64,000 bases of DNA, from the NCBI RefSeq assembly GCF_016065055.1, contig NZ_CP065856.1, forward strand, positions 1,425,836 through 1,489,835. The letters run 5' to 3'. Position 1 is the first letter of the stretch; the number at the start of each line of letters is the position of its first letter. Below, piece after piece: positions 913 to 8,781 of the stretch. The position numbers and the translations under genes were made by a program. Source of the stretch: Halosimplex litoreum. Lineage in GTDB: Archaea > Halobacteriota > Halobacteria > Halobacteriales > Haloarculaceae. The notes below the pieces were generated by a model. It did no database searches and was not told where the DNA came from. It was given only the letters and a program-made list of their open reading frames with translations.

Positions 913-2786
913 GCGGGATCGTCGCGCTCTTGGATCGCGGCCGTGGCGGTGTCGATCCCGACCTGAAGGCGATGCACGAACGCATCGACCATCGGGGCCC
1001 CGACGGGGAGGGAATCTGGTGTGATGGTCCCGTCGGGCTAGGCCACCAGCAGCTCCGTTCGACGCCGGAGGCCGAACACGACGACCAGCCGTGTCGTGAC
1101 GGCGCGGTCGTCGTCACCGGCGATATCCGTCTCGACAACAGAGCGACCTTGCTGGACGCGCTCGACGTCGCGAACGGCGGGAAACCGATTCCCGATAGCC
1201 GGCTGGTGCTCGCGGCGTATCGGCGGTGGGGCGAGGCGTGTCCGGACCATCTCGTCGGGTCGTTCGCGTTCGCCCTGTGGGACTCGGCGGCCGGGCGCCT
1301 GTTGTGCGCCAGGGACTGCTTCGGCGTCAAGCCGCTGTACTATCACTCCAGCCCCGATACCTTCGCGGTCGGCTCGGAGGCGAAGGCACTCCTCGCACTC
1401 CCCGACGTCGACCGAACCCTCGACGAGCGGAAGGTCGGCGACCTCCTCACTGGAACGTTCGAGGACAAAGAGCGGACGTACTACCGCGATATCCGCCGAC
1501 TTCCGCCGGCTCACGCGATCAGTGTTCGCAGCGACGGTAGCCGGCTGTGGCAGTACTGGGACCTCGACCCGACCGACAGCGTCACTCTCGGGTCGGACGC
1601 CGCCTACGAACGGCGGTTCCGGGAGCTGTTCGAGCAGGCCGTCCGCTGTCGACTCCGAACCGACGGAACCGTTGGAACCGCGCTGAGTGGGGGGCTCGAT
1701 TCGTCGTCGATCACGGTCGTAGCCCGTGACCTGCTGTCGTCGGCGGATCCGCTTCTGACCTTCTCGAACGTGTACGACGACGCTCCGACGAGCGACGAGC
1801 GGGAGTTCGTCGAACGGGTGACCGAGCGCGCTGGGATCGACTCACGGTACGTGTTCATGGACGAGGTCGGGATGCTCGACGACCGTGAGTCGATGGGTTG
1901 GCACTACGACCAGCCCCCCCACGATACGATGCACCACGCGATCTGGGAGCGGATGAAGCGTGCGGACGAAGCGGGCGTGAACGTCGTCCTGGAAGGCGCC
2001 CTCGGAGACAGTGCTACCGGGTACGGGCTGGGACTGATCCCGGAGCTGCTGCGGACGGGGCGATGGGGACGACTCGCGGCGGAGATCCAGGCGATCTCGG
2101 AGCGTGGCGGGGCGCCGAGACATCGGGTCTTCCTGCACCACGCCGTCCTTCCGCTCGTTCCGCCCGCAGTGCGCCGAACGTATCGACGGATCCGCGACGA
2201 GCCCGTGCTGGCCGAGCGGAAGAACCCGACGCTTCGCCCGGCGTTCGTCGACCGAGTCGGTCTCGACGAGAAACTTCGGGAGCGGTATGCGACCGGTTCG
2301 GTACTCAGGGAGACGGCTCGGCGCCGCCAGTGTCGGTCGCTCACGTTCGGAACGATCACCGCGAGCCTCGAAACGACCGATCTGGTCGCCGCTGCCTTCG
2401 GCGTCGAGCCTCGCTACCCGTTCACCGACAGGCGACTCGTCGAGTTCTCGCTGGCGATGCCGCCGACCCAACAGCTCTCTGAGGGGTGGACCAGGTCGAT
2501 CATCCGACGGTCGCTCGCCGACCGCCTCCCCGAGGAGATCGGGACGCGCGTGTGGAAGACCGATATGAGCCAGGGGTTCTGGAACTCGCTCGCTCGAGAA
2601 GACGACCGACTCGAGCGCCTCGTCGCCGACCCCGGCCCGCTCGAGGACTTCGTCGACCAGGACGCGCTGCGAGCGGCCCACGAACGGTTCGCCGAAACCC
2701 AGAGCACCCGTGATGCGCGAGCACTCTGGCGCGCACTCTCGCTCTCGACGTGGATGAAGACGTGGGCCCACACGAGCGGTCAGTGA
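909..2786 (+). CDS. Lasso peptide cyclase (asparagine synthetase-like, C protein)
   Basis: 625 residues. The N-terminal half resembles the class II glutamine amidotransferase domain of asparagine synthetase, but the mature start is MSGI instead of MCGI. The catalytic Cys2 is therefore replaced by Ser and glutaminase activity should be absent, as is usual in lasso cyclases. RGPDGEG lies near residue 29. The synthetase half has the PP-loop SGGLDSS at about 260-266, which binds ATP. In lasso pathways this enzyme adenylates an Asp or Glu side chain of the core and joins it to the new N-terminal amine. The start at 909 is chosen over an upstream in-frame ATG because of the ATGA overlap and the family N-terminus. 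The assignment as cyclase rather than an ordinary AsnB rests on the lost Cys2 and the neighbouring B1, B2, exporter and precursors. Confidence 0.88.
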   Translation: MSGIVALLDRGRGGVDPDLKAMHERIDHRGPDGEGIWCDGPVGLGHQQLRSTPEAEHDDQPCRDGAVVVTGDIRLDNRATLLDALDVANGGKPIPDSRLVLAAYRRWGEACPDHLVGSFAFALWDSAAGRLLCARDCFGVKPLYYHSSPDTFAVGSEAKALLALPDVDRTLDERKVGDLLTGTFEDKERTYYRDIRRLPPAHAISVRSDGSRLWQYWDLDPTDSVTLGSDAAYERRFRELFEQAVRCRLRTDGTVGTALSGGLDSSSITVVARDLLSSADPLLTFSNVYDDAPTSDEREFVERVTERAGIDSRYVFMDEVGMLDDRESMGWHYDQPPHDTMHHAIWERMKRADEAGVNVVLEGALGDSATGYGLGLIPELLRTGRWGRLAAEIQAISERGGAPRHRVFLHHAVLPLVPPAVRRTYRRIRDEPVLAERKNPTLRPAFVDRVGLDEKLRERYATGSVLRETARRRQCRSLTFGTITASLETTDLVAAAFGVEPRYPFTDRRLVEFSLAMPPTQQLSEGWTRSIIRRSLADRLPEEIGTRVWKTDMSQGFWNSLAREDDRLERLVADPGPLEDFVDQDALRAAHERFAETQSTRDARALWRALSLSTWMKTWAHTSGQ

Positions 2787-4135
2787 CCCACGACTGACGT
2801 CGTGGGCTTGTCAGTGGACTCCCCTTCTGCCGCCGAATCGACGGAGGCGTGGAACTCGCCGTTCAGGCTCAGCGTCCCTGACGTCAGCGCACACTGACAG
2901 AGTGCGCCTCCACTCGAAGACGTCTGCCCCGAGTGGAGTCGCTCGAGCAGTTTGCGAGCGATGTTCTTGCTCGCGTTGTAGTCCGCATTCAGTTCGTACT
3001 CGCACTGCTGGCAGACGAGCTGGTGTTTCGACCGCCTGTTTATTTCGTGGGTGAACCCGCACTTCGAACACCGTTGACTCGTGTACGATGGACTTACCTG
3101 CGCGACCTCGAGACCGCACATCTCGGCTTTGTACTCGACGTACTCGAACAGGCGTCGGAACGCCCAGGCGTGGAATCGCTTTGCACCAGCCATCCGGTCA
3201 CGAATATCGGTCAGGTCCTCGAAGGCGATATGCGTACAATCGTGGTCGCGAGCCTCGTCGAGAATCCGATTCGACGCGCGGTGTAATTCGTCCTGCATCC
3301 AGCGGTGTTCGCGGTCTTCCATCGACTGGATCGATAAGTGCGCCGACCGCGTGCCCGACCGTTGCATCGACCCGCGCGTCTTTTCGAACTCTCGGCGTCG
3401 GTGGGTCATCTCGTCGGCCTTCCCGACGAACGCGCCCGTCGAAGTCACGGCGAGCGAGCCATCCACGTTCAGGTCGACACCGAGGACTGTTCTGTGCTTG
3501 GCGTCCTCAGAACGCGAAGCGTTCTGATGGGCTGCATCAGACCGTGTCTGATGAACGTCTTCAGAAGGAGTCGTTGACGGCTCTTGGTCGTCTCCCGTTC
3601 GGCGCATCCGTGTGTGGAGATAGAACGACTCCGTGGAGCGGTCGTACTGGAGCGTCGAGGTGCGGAACTCGTAATCCTCGTTCAGTAGGTACTCGCCAAT
3701 CGGCGTCCCCTCGGCGTCGTCGGGCAGCACGTAGTCACACTCGAGGCGACCGTTCACGGTCGAGAGCGAGACGTGGTCGCGGTAGAACGTCGCGGCACGT
3801 TTGTCGTAGACGACGCTCCACGCGTCGAAGTGCCGTTGGCTCGTGGTCTCGCCCTTCTCGCGTCGGGCGACCCCGCTTTTGGTCGCCTCGATAGCGCGTC
3901 GGATCCCTTTCTGGACGAGGTTCGCGGTTAACTCCGTCTCGTCGCGAAGTTGCTCGTAGAGGGCGTTCTCGGCCGTTCGCTTTGAACTCACGCAGTAGGC
4001 GTTCGGGTGTCTCCACGCCCACGCTGCGGTAGTGTTCGCACAGTGGAGGAACTGGTCGTTGGTCCGATGGAGGTCCTCGCACCGCCCGTCGGGTACGTCG
4101 AGTTCGACTTTGACAGTGCGGATCACATCCTCCAT
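2780..4135 (-). CDS. tnpB: RNA-guided endonuclease TnpB
   Basis: 451 residues. The N-terminal part resembles the TnpB helical and wedge region. The RuvC-like domain has all three acidic residues: Asp221 (VLGVDLNVDG), Glu306 (IAFEDLTD) and Asp385 (ELNADYNASKN). A zinc ribbon is formed by Cys356/Cys359 and Cys375/Cys378. A low-complexity insertion sits at about 183-214. The protein therefore looks catalytically intact. TnpB proteins bind an omega RNA derived from the 3' end of their own gene and cut matching DNA next to a short flanking motif, which helps retain the element. The ORF ends inside the last codons of the convergent cyclase gene (7-nt overlap). No TnpA is present, so movement would need a transposase elsewhere. 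Confidence 0.93.
   Translation of the reverse strand: MEDVIRTVKVELDVPDGRCEDLHRTNDQFLHCANTTAAWAWRHPNAYCVSSKRTAENALYEQLRDETELTANLVQKGIRRAIEATKSGVARREKGETTSQRHFDAWSVVYDKRAATFYRDHVSLSTVNGRLECDYVLPDDAEGTPIGEYLLNEDYEFRTSTLQYDRSTESFYLHTRMRRTGDDQEPSTTPSEDVHQTRSDAAHQNASRSEDAKHRTVLGVDLNVDGSLAVTSTGAFVGKADEMTHRRREFEKTRGSMQRSGTRSAHLSIQSMEDREHRWMQDELHRASNRILDEARDHDCTHIAFEDLTDIRDRMAGAKRFHAWAFRRLFEYVEYKAEMCGLEVAQVSPSYTSQRCSKCGFTHEINRRSKHQLVCQQCEYELNADYNASKNIARKLLERLHSGQTSSSGGALCQCALTSGTLSLNGEFHASVDSAAEGESTDKPTTSVVGH
2787..2806 (-). other. Terminal hairpin of the tnpB element (candidate omega RNA end)
   Basis: A perfect 8-bp stem (cccacgac/gtcgtggg) with a 4-nt loop lies just past the tnpB stop. In IS200/IS605 elements the omega RNA covers the 3' part of tnpB and runs to the right end, with the guide taken from the flanking DNA. 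If that holds here, the guide would match the 3' end of the cyclase gene. No RNA evidence is available from sequence alone. Confidence 0.45.
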
Positions 4136-4307: not shown

Positions 4308-4337
4308 TTAATTATAGAAAGCCAACAATTCGGTGAT
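4308..4337 (+). promoter_or_regulatory. Promoter and ribosome binding site of precursor 1
   Basis: An AT-rich TATA-like box (ttaattata, 4308-4316) lies about 30 nt before the ATG at 4343. GGTGAT at 4332-4337 matches the haloarchaeal anti-Shine-Dalgarno sequence and lies 5 nt before the start. Together these decide the start of the precursor and show it has its own promoter, independent of the cyclase and of the inserted element. Confidence 0.6.
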
Positions 4338-4342
4338 GGGTC

Positions 4343-4504
4343 ATGACAAGAGACACGGGTGACTACGGTGTACCTGAACTGACCGAATACGGGTCCGTTG
4401 AGGCAATCACGGAACAGCAATACAACAAAGACGGCACGTCGACCGACCAGTACACCGACGACACGAACGGTGAGATCGTGGGCTCGACCAGCCCGTATCC
4501 CTGA
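4343..4504 (+). CDS. Lasso peptide precursor 1
   Basis: 53 residues, not a long ORF. The leader has the lasso recognition pattern Tyr8-x2-Pro11-x-Leu13-x3-Gly17-x5-Thr23 that B1 proteins bind. The second half has N-K-D-G, then T-D-Q-Y-T-D-D-T, and ends VGSTSPYP. The core start is not obvious because the usual Thr at position -2 would leave no Asp or Glu at core position 7-9. Two registers give a 9-residue ring: Tyr27 to Asp35, or Gly31 to Asp39. The gene sits between the tnpB element and precursor 2, on the cyclase strand. It shares most of its leader and the T-D-Q-Y block with precursor 2, so the two are paralogues. Confidence 0.85.
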   Translation: MTRDTGDYGVPELTEYGSVEAITEQQYNKDGTSTDQYTDDTNGEIVGSTSPYP

Positions 4505-4641
4505 CTCGTCGTCGGGTCGAAGCCGAGACCGTGCTGTCGTGACAGTCTGGTTTCCACGACAGCGCTGTGGGCCCTGCCGGGCCCCGTTCGGATGCCACTA
4601 TCGTCGCTTGTGGACGCTTCCGATTAGATGTCACTGTCGAG

Positions 4642-4700
4642 GCGCATTCGAGATCCGAACGATGGGCGGATCCGATCCCGTCGTTTACTCTCGAATGCGC
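4642..4700 (+). repeat. Inverted repeat between the two precursor genes
   Basis: A perfect 12-bp inverted repeat (gcgcattcgaga at 4642-4653, tctcgaatgcgc at 4689-4700) with an inner 5-bp pair (aacga/tcgtt) would fold into a long hairpin. It lies in the 308-nt gap between precursor 1 and precursor 2 (4505-4812), which holds no other convincing gene. A GC-rich short inverted repeat (gggcc/ggccc) lies nearer precursor 1 at about 4568-4585. Either could end the precursor 1 transcript or act on precursor 2 expression. Confidence 0.55.
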
Positions 4701-4778
4701 GGCAGATCACCGTTCACCAGTCGTTGGTCGTCGGTCACATATTCGTTCCCTCGGGTCACGATCCAGTTCCTACGCTAG

Positions 4779-4787
4779 TTTTATATT
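4779..4787 (+). promoter_or_regulatory. TATA box of precursor 2
   Basis: ttttatatt lies with its centre about 30 nt before the ATG at 4813. This spacing fits a transcript starting at or very close to the start codon, as is common in haloarchaea. It indicates that precursor 2 is transcribed separately from precursor 1. Confidence 0.6.
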
Positions 4788-4812
4788 GATCGACAGGAAC
4801 GATCCAGTTAGG

Positions 4813-4971
4813 ATGACGCGTCAGCAATCCAACAGCGAGTACACGTCGCCCCAGATGACCGAATACGGACCCGTCGAATCGATCACCGAGCAGTCGAACA
4901 AGGAGGGAGGGGCGACCGACCAGTACAGTGACAACACTCCGCTCGTCGGTTCGATCTCGCCCGCGTCGTAA
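4813..4971 (+). CDS. Lasso peptide precursor 2
   Basis: 52 residues. The leader pattern is Tyr10-x2-Pro13-x-Met15-x3-Gly19-x5-Thr25, nearly the same as in precursor 1 (both share TEYG and an ITEQ segment). The core half has N-K-E-G, then T-D-Q-Y-S-D-N-T, and ends VGSISPAS. Ring candidates are Ser28 to Asp36 or Gly32 to Asp40, each giving nine residues. The C-terminal residue is Ser52, which matters because a lasso-kinase-like gene lies 58 nt downstream on the opposite strand, and known lasso kinases modify a C-terminal Ser. The start is set by the leaderless-type promoter; a longer in-frame ORF upstream is not supported. Confidence 0.85.
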   Translation: MTRQQSNSEYTSPQMTEYGPVESITEQSNKEGGATDQYSDNTPLVGSISPAS

Positions 4972-5029: not shown

Positions 5030-5944
5030 TCACCCCTCTACGAGTCGACCACACCGCGCGTCTTCGACCACTTTTTCGACCAGTTCCGGGAGTCGGTCGT
5101 GATCCCGAGGGCGCTTCAACACCCGGAACACAGCGGTATCGACCACGCGCGAACAGTGCTCGAAGTGAGTCTGGGACTGGGCCGTGTCCGAGAGCAATCC
5201 GCGCGCGTGCGTGCGAGAAACGAGTCCGAGCAGCTTCTCGTGACCGTCCAACGCCCCGAAGCCGAGGTGGTCACCGCGCTGGAGTTTGAAGCAGCGAGTG
5301 AGGGGGACGGGCTCGGGGATCTCGGACACCGACAGATACTGTTTTTCGTACCACGACTCCTCCGACGGGGTGGACCGGTCCGTGACGTTCAGTGCCACCG
5401 CGGCGTCCTCCCGCAAGCGTAGCTGCGGGACGCCGGGGAGGACCATCGGGGTCCCCGAGTCGAAACGGATCCCGACTACGTCGTCCTCCAGCATCGGGTA
5501 CCCCTCGAGTTGCATCGCCGTCGCAGTGGTCGACTTCCCCGCTCCACGGGGTCCGAGGAACACGACCCCGTTTCCGTCGACGGCCACCGCGCTCGCGTGC
5601 AAGACGAGGTTGCCGCGCTGGTGGAGCAAGAGCCCGATCATCTCGTTTTCCAGCAACCGCCGAAACAGATCCCGTTCCACGAGGTCCTCGGAATCCGGAT
5701 CACAGACGACGCGTTCACCCCCTTCGACCAGAAACGACCCGATCGTGTCGTACGAGAGCCGGCAGGTGCCGGGAGCCGCTGCGATCCGACGACCGTCGAA
5801 CGCTTCGACCGTCTCGGCGACGGCTGTAACCTCCCCGAGACGGAATTCGACGTCGACGCTCGCGGGCTCGTCCGGGAGCGACGGGAGTTCGGGGAGCGTG
5901 AACTCGGACCGGATCGTGAGGTCGTACGCGGAGTAATAGTGCAT
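5030..5944 (-). CDS. HPr kinase-like lasso peptide kinase
   Basis: 304 residues. The C-terminal half is an HPr-kinase/PEP-carboxykinase-like fold with LHAS at about 115-118, the P-loop GPRGAGKST at 131-139 and an acidic LEDD at 152-155. The N-terminal part is a divergent beta-rich domain. HPr kinases proper act in bacterial sugar control; here there is no HPr and the gene lies between the precursors and the exporter. In bacterial clusters such as that of paeninodin, a homologous kinase phosphorylates the C-terminal Ser of the precursor. Precursor 2 ends in Ser. The substrate is inference. Its own TATA-like box lies at 5984-5993. Confidence 0.8.
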   Translation of the reverse strand: MHYYSAYDLTIRSEFTLPELPSLPDEPASVDVEFRLGEVTAVAETVEAFDGRRIAAAPGTCRLSYDTIGSFLVEGGERVVCDPDSEDLVERDLFRRLLENEMIGLLLHQRGNLVLHASAVAVDGNGVVFLGPRGAGKSTTATAMQLEGYPMLEDDVVGIRFDSGTPMVLPGVPQLRLREDAAVALNVTDRSTPSEESWYEKQYLSVSEIPEPVPLTRCFKLQRGDHLGFGALDGHEKLLGLVSRTHARGLLSDTAQSQTHFEHCSRVVDTAVFRVLKRPRDHDRLPELVEKVVEDARCGRLVEG

Positions 5945-6068: not shown

Positions 6069-7856
6069 TCACGATTGTGTGACGTAGAGTTCGGCGTAGG
6101 TTCCGTCTCTCTCGAGCAGTTGGTCGTGTGTTCCGGTTTCGGTGACCGATCCGTCCACCAGGGTGTAGATACGGTCGGCGCCGTCGACCGTCGAGAGTCG
6201 GTGTGCGATGCTGATCGTCGCGTACTCCGACTCGAGCGAGCGGATCCCCTCGTAGACGGTCTGTTCGATGTTCGAATCGAGTTCGCTCGTCGCCTCGTCC
6301 AGCACCAACACGTCGGCGTCCTTCAACAGGGCTCGGGCGATGGCGACCCGTTGTTTCTGGCCACCGGACAGGCGTACCCCGTCCTCACCGAGTTCCGTCT
6401 CGTACCCATCGGGTAGCTCCGGGAGAAATTCGGTGACCTGCGCGGTTTCGCACGCTCGTTCGATCGCTCGGTCGGACGCGTTTCGGTTCCCGATCGAGAC
6501 GTTTTCCCGCAGACTCCCGTCGAACAGGAACGGGTCTTGACGGACGATAGCGAGGCGCTCGCGCCACTCGCGGACGTCGAGGTCCTCGATCGGTGTCCCA
6601 TCGGCGCGGATATCGCCCGAATCCGGCACCTGTAGGCGGCCGAGCAGCGCGATAACGGTCGACTTTCCGGCGCCCGACGGCCCGACCAGTGCGACCGTTT
6701 CGCCGCGTTCGACCGAGAACGAGACGTCGTCGAGAACCCGTTCACTGCCCCCATAGGAGAACGAAACGTCGTCGAAGTCGACGCGCTGTACCGTCCGGAT
6801 CGACCGGTCACCCCCGGTAGCCGGTGTCTCCCGTTCGGCGAGTGACTCCAGTCGGTCTCGAACCCGGAGGAGGTGCGGGAGTTGCCCGTCTAGCGTGTAC
6901 AGGCGGTTGTTGATCTGATTCACCACGGGCGACAGTCGAAATATCGCGAAGAGGAACACGCCCAATCGTGCGATCGAGAGTGAGGTCAGTCGGAACCCGG
7001 CGTAGACGAGTCCGAACACGACGATTACGTTCGCGAACTGGTTGAGATTCTGCAGCGCAGCCTGATTTCGGCGGAGTCTGACGTTGCTGGCGACGTATCC
7101 GTCGAGCGACTCGTGCATCCTGTCGACGAACTCCTCGCGCATGTTGAACAGCCGAACGTCGCGTGCGCCCTGGAAGCTAGCCTGCGAGAGCGTCTGGAGT
7201 TCGTCGTTGATGTTCGCGACCTCGTCGCCGACCGCGTACGCCGGTTCGAGGACGTACCGGACGAGCAGAGTGCTCACGGTGAGACTGGCGACGGCGACAG
7301 CAGTCAGCGCCGGTGACAACAGCGTGGCCAGGATCAGGTAGACCCCACCCCGCAGCACGACTTCGGTAATGTTGAACGTGGCCATGACGATGCCGGCGGC
7401 CCTGTTCGTCTCCGTGATGAAGCTGTTCAGGAGATCGTCCGACCCGACTTCGTCGATGTAGTCGACTGGCCCGTACATCAGCGAATCGAACAGCCGTTCT
7501 CGGAGCTCACGCTGGTAACTCACGCCGAGGATAGCCCGGAGCCAGCCGCTGACGAAACTGAGTGCGAACCGGAGAAACATGACACCACCGAGACTCACGA
7601 TCAGCGATTCGAGGGTGAGGGGGATCCCGAACCACCCGTAGACTCGAACGAACAGGCCCAACGGCCCGTCGGCGTCGTGCGGGGACGGCGACTGCGTGAT
7701 CTCGATGATGGGCAACAAGAGACCGAGCCCGACCCCCTCGAGGAGCGCCGCCGAGAAACTCACGACGACGACCCCTGCCCCGAGCCACGGTCTGAACTGG
7801 GCCGCCTGGTACACCGCGGACACTTTGTCTCGGAGTGTCGGATCGGCTCGTGTCAT
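6069..7856 (-). CDS. ABC exporter, probable lasso peptide exporter (D protein)
   Basis: 595 residues from MTRADP. About six membrane segments fill residues 25-310. The nucleotide-binding domain has Walker A GPSGAGKST (392-400), signature LSGGQ (496-500), Walker B VLVLDE (516-521) and a switch His in IAHRLS. It is a half-transporter of the MsbA/lasso D type that would work as a homodimer and export the mature peptide. The start at 7856 is preferred over an in-frame start at 7934 because GGTGAG precedes it at a normal distance. It is followed by the kinase and preceded by the B2 peptidase. Substrate assignment rests on context; it is also the likely self-resistance function. Confidence 0.85.
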   Translation of the reverse strand: MTRADPTLRDKVSAVYQAAQFRPWLGAGVVVVSFSAALLEGVGLGLLLPIIEITQSPSPHDADGPLGLFVRVYGWFGIPLTLESLIVSLGGVMFLRFALSFVSGWLRAILGVSYQRELRERLFDSLMYGPVDYIDEVGSDDLLNSFITETNRAAGIVMATFNITEVVLRGGVYLILATLLSPALTAVAVASLTVSTLLVRYVLEPAYAVGDEVANINDELQTLSQASFQGARDVRLFNMREEFVDRMHESLDGYVASNVRLRRNQAALQNLNQFANVIVVFGLVYAGFRLTSLSIARLGVFLFAIFRLSPVVNQINNRLYTLDGQLPHLLRVRDRLESLAERETPATGGDRSIRTVQRVDFDDVSFSYGGSERVLDDVSFSVERGETVALVGPSGAGKSTVIALLGRLQVPDSGDIRADGTPIEDLDVREWRERLAIVRQDPFLFDGSLRENVSIGNRNASDRAIERACETAQVTEFLPELPDGYETELGEDGVRLSGGQKQRVAIARALLKDADVLVLDEATSELDSNIEQTVYEGIRSLESEYATISIAHRLSTVDGADRIYTLVDGSVTETGTHDQLLERDGTYAELYVTQS

Positions 7857-8034
7857 TCCGAACTCACCGTCACGGCGCAACTGTTCCGGAACCCTCGCTT
7901 CGACTCCGGCGGGTGGACCCGCGTTCGCGCACACCGCCTGCGCCCGATCGAGTCCGACACCGACGTCTTCAGCCGTCGAAGGCCCGATGATCGACCGTCC
8001 GTCGTGATGCTACTCATCTCTCGAGGATATCCAA

Positions 8035-8481
8035 TTAGCGTTCATTTCCGGTGCTTATCGGTGGGAGCGGTTCGTACTCCTCCAGATTGTCTACGTCTCC
8101 GATCAGCACTTCACCTTCGAACTCGATCCAACTGTGGGCTCTGACACTGTCGGACGAGTCTCTGTCGACGCCGATCCGGTGTTCGAACGAGTGGCCGTAC
8201 GTGCGAAGCAGTACCTCCGCGGTCAGCGAGCGGACCAGACAGGTTCTGGTCCCCGGCACCCACGAATCCGCGACGTCCACCGCCGCGACCACCTGACCCG
8301 CGGTCGGTGTTCCCGGAACGACCAGGGAACCGACGTCACCGGTTCCGGCCAGTACCGATCTGAGCCGATCGAAAGAGACGACGACCAACCCTCCCCAGAT
8401 GGCGACCAACAGCCCACTCGCGACCGCGAGTCGAAGCTTGTCGCCAGGTGGGGCCGAGACGAATCGTTTCACCCGGTCCAT
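8035..8481 (-). CDS. Lasso leader peptidase (B2, transglutaminase-like)
   Basis: 148 residues from the ATG at 8481; a GTG at 8487 would add two. The transglutaminase-like Cys-His-Asp triad is visible: Cys in TCLVRSLTAEVLL, His in AHSWIEFEG and Asp in LIGDVDNLEEYEPL, which is the normal spacing for lasso B2 proteins. Its role is to cut the leader from the precursor, exposing the amine used in ring closure. A hydrophobic segment near residues 16-36 suggests membrane attachment, which may bring processing close to the exporter. It directly follows B1 with almost no gap, so the two are one operon. A gap of about 180 nt separates it from the exporter. Confidence 0.88.
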   Translation of the reverse strand: MDRVKRFVSAPPGDKLRLAVASGLLVAIWGGLVVVSFDRLRSVLAGTGDVGSLVVPGTPTAGQVVAAVDVADSWVPGTRTCLVRSLTAEVLLRTYGHSFEHRIGVDRDSSDSVRAHSWIEFEGEVLIGDVDNLEEYEPLPPISTGNER

Positions 8482-8490
8482 CGGCACACG

Positions 8491-8781
8491 TTACGGGTCG
8501 TCGACGACCCGAGCGAGGTCCTGTTCGACTAGTTCGTCGACCAGAGATTCGATATCCGACCGACATCGCTCCCGTTCGACGTCGTACTCGTTTTCGATCT
8601 GCTGTGTGATCTCGACCATCGACCGGGGTTCCTGCATCGCCTCCCAGATCCTGGTCCCGACTTCGTTGAACCCGAAGTACTCTCCCGATCCCGTATGCAG
8701 GATCACGGACTCTCCATCGAGTGTCGTCGAAAGCGCGTCTTCGACCGCGACGACGGTCGTCGAGTCCGTATAGTCGCCCAT
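8491..8781 (-). CDS. PqqD-like lasso leader recognition protein (B1)
   Basis: 96 residues, the usual size for a stand-alone PqqD/RRE protein. It shows the PqqD pattern: an N-terminal strand region, ILHTGSGEYFGFNEVGTRIWE, then a helical part with VEITQQIENEYD and a C-terminal helix rich in Leu and Val. RiPP recognition elements bind the precursor leader and present it to B2. It is the first gene of the leftward B1-B2 unit and has an upstream TATA box. No catalytic residues are expected. Confidence 0.87.
   Translation of the reverse strand: MGDYTDSTTVVAVEDALSTTLDGESVILHTGSGEYFGFNEVGTRIWEAMQEPRSMVEITQQIENEYDVERERCRSDIESLVDELVEQDLARVVDDP

Follow-up and report, generated by a model that had tools for sequence, protein, structure and literature searches.

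The characterised lasso peptides, as described in PMC13352647, have macrolactam rings of 7, 8 or 9 residues that are closed by the N-terminus of the peptide. In microcin J25, as presented in PMC11420955, a precursor whose leader has a Thr at position -2 is processed by B and C enzymes, and the N-terminal amine closes a 26-atom ring between Gly1 and Glu8. According to the same source, this Thr fits a pocket of B1/B2 in a model that positions the thiol at the bond between leader and core; the T-2M and T-2F substitutions lower production to about 1% or nothing. Asn has been described at ring position 1 in metanodin (PMC12670498). BsfA of Bradymonas, which is of the paeninodin type, has Ile at -2 and its ring still starts two residues further on (Gly1-Asp8); its cluster, as presented in PMC10368454, has split B1 and B2 proteins and a kinase-like gene beside the precursor. 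Lariocidin B (class V) carries a Lys side-chain amide, but in the description given in PMC11451635 this bond between Lys2 and the C-terminus is a second one beside a Ser1-Asp8 ring. The open-licence literature yielded neither a report of a lasso ring closed by a Lys nor one of an experimentally proven lasso peptide from haloarchaea.

The locus analysed here lies in a stretch of 64,000 nucleotides (hereafter the window), which is part of a haloarchaeal chromosome of 4.16 Mb recovered as one contig. It resembles cyanobacterial-type lasso clusters (NF033535, NF033528) by its cyclase (above the cut-off), the spacing of its leaders and its split B1 and B2. However, its host is archaeal and its two precursors, P1 and P2, are under the cut-off (22.8 and 18.6 bits for a cut-off of 33 with NCBIfam NF033528, lasso_cyano), lack an acid at core positions 7-9 and have a Lys six residues before an Asp. 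The nearest canonical relatives of its cyclase (support 93) are also haloarchaeal and accompany precursors of the G-x-H-F-S-x-V-D type (L041, L047 and L164), which differ by a Gly1-Asp8 ring following the Thr(-2) rule and by the lack of the Lys-Asp pair. Precursors of this type, with the motif G-x-H-F-S-x-V-D-G-N and their own cyclase, were found at L041:14992-15138, at L047:6412-6546 and in L164 (end 4959). The clusters of BsfA and of the window both have separate B1 and B2 proteins and a kinase-like gene next to the precursor genes; compared to BsfA, the Thr is kept, the distance to the predicted ring is variable and the kinase is putative.

The lasso-type cluster consists of cyclase C, the two precursors, an HprK-like protein, an ABC exporter, B2 and B1 (Table 1). 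B2 is the single NF033537 match in the whole genome, and its Cys83 and His118 are invariant among 14 aligned B2 proteins. B1 falls under the lasso-specific NF033536 cut-off (69.5 of 80 bits). A search with 22 aligned precursors identified just P1 and P2 as precursors of this type in the genome. Each of them has a single Lys, and each ATG is preceded by one TATA-like box, which would fit separate transcription of the two genes. The HPr-kinase-like protein, whose relatives are also found beside the haloarchaeal loci with Lys-bearing precursors (K-type, see below), does not reach the curated cut-offs of the HprK-related kinase models TIGR04352 and PF07475. Among solved structures, the best match was the hydroxyamidotransferase 7ylz and no lasso cyclase was present. 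Plasmid records gave one close match, Halopiger xanaduensis NC_015658.1.

Table 1. Features of the lasso-type cluster, with positions counted from the first nucleotide of the window
Feature	Position	Strand	Remarks
Lasso cyclase C, asparagine-synthetase-like, 625 aa	909..2786	+	NF033535 601.8 bits (cut-off 525), PF00733, PF13537
TATA-like box TTAATTATA	4308..4316	+	about 30-35 bases upstream of the P1 ATG; putative role
Precursor P1, 53 aa	4343..4504	+	Thr23 4409-4411, Lys29 4427-4429, Asp35 4445-4447
TATA-like box TTTTATATTG	4779..4788	+	about 30-34 bases upstream of the P2 ATG; putative role
Precursor P2, 52 aa	4813..4971	+	Thr25 4885-4887, Lys30 4900-4902, Asp36 4918-4920
HPr-kinase-like protein, possible precursor kinase	5030..5944	-	sub-threshold: TIGR04352 36.9 of 200, PF07475 21.9 of 33.3
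ABC exporter, fused membrane and ATPase domains	6069..7934	-	PF00005, PF00664 above cut-off
B2 leader peptidase, transglutaminase-like	8035..8487	-	NF033537 84 bits (cut-off 33), PF13471
B1, PqqD-like leader-binding domain (RRE)	8491..8781	-	PF05402 71.4 bits (cut-off 23.4)

Two other genes lie close to the cluster. A candidate TnpB-like transposase gene, read from its translation, occupies positions 2780-4135 between the cyclase and the precursors; it overlaps the last codons of the cyclase gene, and inverted G+C-rich stretches are found at both sides, near 2790 and 4230. In the nearest relative (L043), cyclase and precursor genes adjoin. Positions 37-912 contain a membrane-protein-like ORF without notable family match, weak relatives of which are located several kb off the cluster in L045, L053, L062, L064 and L066-L069.

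Both leaders are normal, as the sequence-only reading had noticed: P1 shows Y8-P11-L13-G17-T23 (that is, Y-17, P-14, L-12 and T-2), and P2 has the same spacing with a Met instead of the Leu at -12 and T25 as the Thr at -2. The same reading had stated that Thr at -2 leaves no Asp or Glu at core positions 7-9, and this is indeed the case for both peptides. Counted from this Thr, the core of P1 begins with QQYNKDGTSTD and has its acids at positions 6 and 11, whereas that of P2 begins with QSNKEGGATD and has them at positions 5 and 10; the distance from Thr to the ring thus differs by one residue between them. Relatives were gathered by several searches. B2 (NF033537) was detected at E <= 0.001 in 33 of 391 Halobacteria genomes (31 above the cut-off), and two further family-level searches, partly overlapping, found it in 13/125 and 7/170 genomes. 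A scan of genome contigs for the cyclase, of which the best 80 of 585 relatives were kept, was complemented by searches per phylum draw (20/386 for the Nostoc locus, 8/297 for the Acidobacteria locus and 6/251 for the Chloroflexi locus). Requiring a Thr at -2 plus G, D or N at -8 reduced the 319 matches of the leader pattern to 169, and 146 distinct cores were located at most 4.5 kb from a cyclase. An acid is present at core positions 7-9 in 109 of these 146 precursors and missing in 37. Since most obey the rule and the type of exception found in the window recurs in relatives, the departure of P1 and P2 from the rule is confirmed to be beyond chance.

A Lys stands exactly six residues before an Asp in 26 of these 37 rule-breaking precursors, whereas shuffling the cores 5000 times gave 3.1 such cases on average and at most 11. 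The 11 others are the second precursor of L046 and those of L061, L082, L095, L101, L167, L172, L175, L188, L193 and L203, the rule-breaking one of L175 being probably spurious. When rule-obeying members are included, the Lys-bearing type (K-type) amounts to 44 precursors (26 haloarchaeal and 18 bacterial), a set that is defined by the Lys and the Asp themselves. A count by cyclase clade, which does not depend on this definition, found the pair in 26/27 precursors of the haloarchaeal clade, which includes the cyclase of the window, in 13/14 of the main bacterial clade and in 5/102 elsewhere (L091, three in L119, and L185). The named bacterial hosts are Cyanobacteriota, Acidobacteriota, Chloroflexota, Candidatus Rokuibacteriota and Thermodesulfobacteriota.

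Some precursors were not counted among the 44. That of L188 with K2-D8 was excluded, and L090, L207, L209, L211 and L212 also remain outside. L211 carries a K3-D9 precursor, and those of L207 and L209, also K3-D9, otherwise look canonical. L090 (end 10397) and L212 (ends 8176 and 8441) form a subfamily in which Leu occupies -2 and a long spacer, with a conserved SIETTxPAKRC, precedes a KxxGxxD motif whose Lys is at core position 13 or 14. Since the wider listing admitted precursors without Thr at -2 solely when a K or R was six residues before an Asp, the criterion that brought up L090 and L212 was less strict than that used for the counts.

In haloarchaea, the K-type motif is x-[N/D]-K-x-G-x-x-x-D, with N or D before the Lys in 25/26 and the Gly in 25/26; in bacteria it is K-x-x-G-x-x-D, with the Gly in 18/18 and various residues before the Lys, including Pro. 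The recurrence of these residues and of the Asp in haloarchaeal relatives bears out the earlier proposal that the N-K-D/E-G and T-D-Q-Y blocks matter. Alignment of 22 precursors, the check that had been suggested, showed seven invariant columns (Y8, P11, G17, T23, K29, D35 and G47 in P1 numbering): the Asp is thus invariant, and so is the Lys, whereas the proposed start residue of the ring varies. Gaps occur between Thr and Lys but not between Lys and Asp. Likewise, the Lys-Asp distance is constant in the 26 haloarchaeal K-types, while the stretch from Thr to Lys has five lengths. The spacing can even vary among the precursors that accompany one cyclase, as seen in three loci (Thr-Lys spacings of 4 and 5 in the window, 5 and 4 in L040, and 5, 5 and 7 in L119). 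Among the relatives, L064 has no spacer and L073 a long one. As candidate kinase targets, we noted the Ser or Thr that 24 of the 26 haloarchaeal K-types have three residues past the ring Asp, and the G47 column with the Ser that follows it in most of the 22 aligned precursors.

These comparisons identify with good confidence the ring Asp as D35 in P1 and D36 in P2, as judged from conservation. The sequence-only reading had listed two registers giving 9-residue rings, and both are indeed present in P1 and P2. The one that starts at the Gly of NKxG and ends at the next Asp leaves no acid at 7-9 in 8 of the 26 haloarchaeal K-types and was rejected as a rule for the family. The other, from the residue before N-K (Tyr or Ser) to the Asp of T-D-Q-Y, designates the right Asp, half of these precursors (13/26) obeying the Thr(-2) rule with a 9-residue ring ending at this very Asp. 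It gives a 9-residue ring in 26/26; its start residue, however, is among the least conserved. Besides these 13, the first precursor of L041 is a fourteenth one with an acid at 9, its Lys being at position 4. The remaining haloarchaeal K-types have one to four extra residues after the Thr. Overall, the earlier interpretation is partly supported.

Taken literally, this register means that in some members the cut made by B2 and B1 lies one to four residues farther from the Thr, before the residue that precedes N/D-K, and that an ordinary 9-residue ring is then closed by the alpha-amine (Y27-D35 in P1, S28-D36 in P2). We consider such flexible cutting rather unlikely, even though it coincides with the Thr rule in the 13 precursors mentioned above and a characterised system described in PMC10885120 tolerates many first residues. 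The leader Thr is displaced in none of the 22 aligned precursors although the cut would shift by up to four residues, P1 and P2 would need cuts at unequal distances from the Thr by the same B2, and the invariant Lys is left without explanation. The supposed first residue is N in 9, Q in 6, T in 3, S in 2, D in 1 and L in 1 of the 26 haloarchaeal K-types, with others in the remainder. This last argument is weakened by the Lys-free relatives, whose residue 1 is variable too (G in 36 and A in 19 of 90, the rest including I, V, Q and F). The new cleavage specificity of B2 that had been proposed is thus possible, but the fixed Thr (22/22) and the 13/26 precursors that fit an ordinary cut do not favour it.

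A ring closed by the Lys side chain accounts for the data no less well than farther cutting, because the distance from Thr to Lys varies whereas that from Lys to Asp is constant. The usual cut would place the new N-terminus at unequal distances from the Asp in P1 and P2, which have one B2 and one cyclase between them. What seems to be wanted is an amine at a constant distance from the Asp, and the Lys side chain appears to be the only conserved candidate. We therefore propose tentatively, at somewhat less than even probability, that P1 and P2 are precursors of lasso-type macrolactams in which the cyclase joins the side-chain amine of the Lys to the Asp after the usual B2 cut. With similar caution, the K-types of haloarchaea and of the five bacterial phyla may form one class characterised by a 26-atom Lys-Asp ring and a free, variable N-terminal tail.

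In this proposal, B1/B2 would cut at the usual Thr(-2) site, before Q25 in P1 and before Q27 in P2, which is the simplest reading since the Thr keeps its leader position. Cyclase C would then activate the invariant Asp (D35 or D36), which would be joined to the side-chain amine of K29 (P1) or K30 (P2) instead of the new N-terminus. The resulting side-chain-to-side-chain ring would contain 26 atoms; by calculation, a Gly1-Asp8 ring contains 25, a Gly1-Glu8 ring 26 and a Gly1-Asp9 ring 28. The proposed size is therefore that of the microcin J25 ring, which differs by its nucleophile, the N-terminal amine (PMC11420955). The residues before the Lys would form a free tail whose length would be little constrained, since they lie outside the proposed ring. 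This tail would often start with Gln, and an N-terminal Gln can close to pyroglutamate, so that it may be capped in this way. The putative kinase-like protein may phosphorylate the peptides, and the ABC transporter may export them. After a cut following the Thr rule, residue 1 is Gly or Ala in 3/44 K-types compared to 55/91 other precursors, and Gln in 19/44 compared to 4/91; the scarcity of small residues and the frequency of Gln may both fit a Lys ring. Compared to lariocidin B, in which the Lys amide is the second bond in the description of PMC11451635, the Lys-Asp bond would here close the sole ring, and the window proteins that were scanned included none resembling clostripain.

The Lys could also be the first residue of the core. 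A cut directly before it would give a 7-residue alpha-amine ring (K29-D35 in P1, K30-D36 in P2), a size found among the rings described in PMC13352647, and would account for both the invariant Lys and its fixed distance from the Asp. We nevertheless hold this to be very unlikely, as the cut would be at least five residues from the Thr pocket, yet the Thr is kept, and the residue preceding the cut is N/D in haloarchaea and variable, even Pro, in bacteria. A cut after the Lys was discarded, the Asp then falling at position 6, outside the ring sizes of 7, 8 and 9 described in PMC13352647.

Alternatively, the Thr-rule cut could be followed by the closure of larger rings of 9-14 residues between the new N-terminus and the conserved Asp (11 in P1 and 10 in P2). 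This would require neither a new cut nor a new nucleophile, and Lys-free rule-breaking precursors with Asp10 or Asp11 do exist. The characterised rings nonetheless have 7, 8 or 9 residues (PMC13352647), and larger ones leave unexplained the Lys six residues before the Asp and the frequent Gln at position 1; we regard them as quite unlikely. A separate aminopeptidase might also remove the extra residues after a Thr-rule cut by B2, before the closure of a 9-residue alpha-amine ring. Such trimming would be compatible with the conserved position of the Thr, and two successive proteolytic steps are known from other RiPPs (PMC10885120), but cutting and cyclisation appear to be coupled in lasso peptides according to the same source, and the scan of eight or ten window proteins revealed no peptidase besides B2. 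It appears highly improbable.

Several observations speak against the Lys ring. Every characterised lasso ring met in PMC13352647 closes on the N-terminal amine, and 13 of the 26 haloarchaeal K-types also fit an ordinary 9-residue alpha-amine ring. Arg takes the place of Lys, with a rule-breaking spacing, in L188 (RTPGAGD) and L227 (RSGGGTD), where it would not be expected to act as ring nucleophile. The precursor of L082 and the second one of L046 lie inside the K clades and lack the Lys-Asp pair. Furthermore, in a Lys-free cyanobacterial set (L193, L217, L218, L220, L221, L223, L224 and L226), the first acid of the ring region is Asp10 by the Thr rule. The distance from cut to Asp can thus shift by one without any Lys, which helps the flexible-cutting alternative: a cut one residue farther would give 9-residue rings with a mostly small residue 1. 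These precursors, with leaders like YGDIRELT, may have either such a cut or a 10-residue ring.

In the tree of 145 cyclases (duplicate loci left out), haloarchaeal and bacterial K-type cyclases are separate, but a constraint placing them in one clade was not rejected (AU p 0.389). Two independent origins of the Lys type were thus not retained. As both main K clades may share one origin, it is L091, L119 and L185 that speak for repeated occurrence of the type in distinct lineages. Kinship-corrected pairs, on average 2.2 for and 0.0 against (median p 0.5), were too few for a test of the association. Among the cyclase residues common to the K clades, columns 594, 528, 553 and 557 are the best candidates.

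The survey also revealed loci that may produce no ring at all. Among the 31 haloarchaeal B2 loci (L039-L069), 17 (L039, L042, L048-L060, L063 and L065) had no cyclase match within the roughly 20 kb retrieved for each. Most of these 17 encode B1, B2, a kinase-like protein and an ABC transporter together with lasso-type leaders followed by short cores, such as WWDHDDGYGKWS in L048 or the six paralogues of L039, and they possibly specify leader-processed peptides without ring. Lasso-type leaders also precede Gly-rich or Gly/Lys/Arg-repeat cores, one with a long Gly run, in L053 (ends 10349, 10657 and 11678) and L061 (end 8320).

As residues are usually counted from the leader Thr to locate a lasso ring, precursors similar to P1 and P2 would be assigned a wrong register or dismissed. 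The question of their ring is directly testable, because two short peptides share one locus, one B2 and one cyclase. If B2 does cut at several distances, a long-accepted cleavage rule would fall. If the Lys ring is true, a known class of enzymes would use a changed nucleophile and the ring would be uncoupled from the leader cut, allowing these peptides to tolerate N-terminal extensions that are impossible for ordinary lasso peptides.
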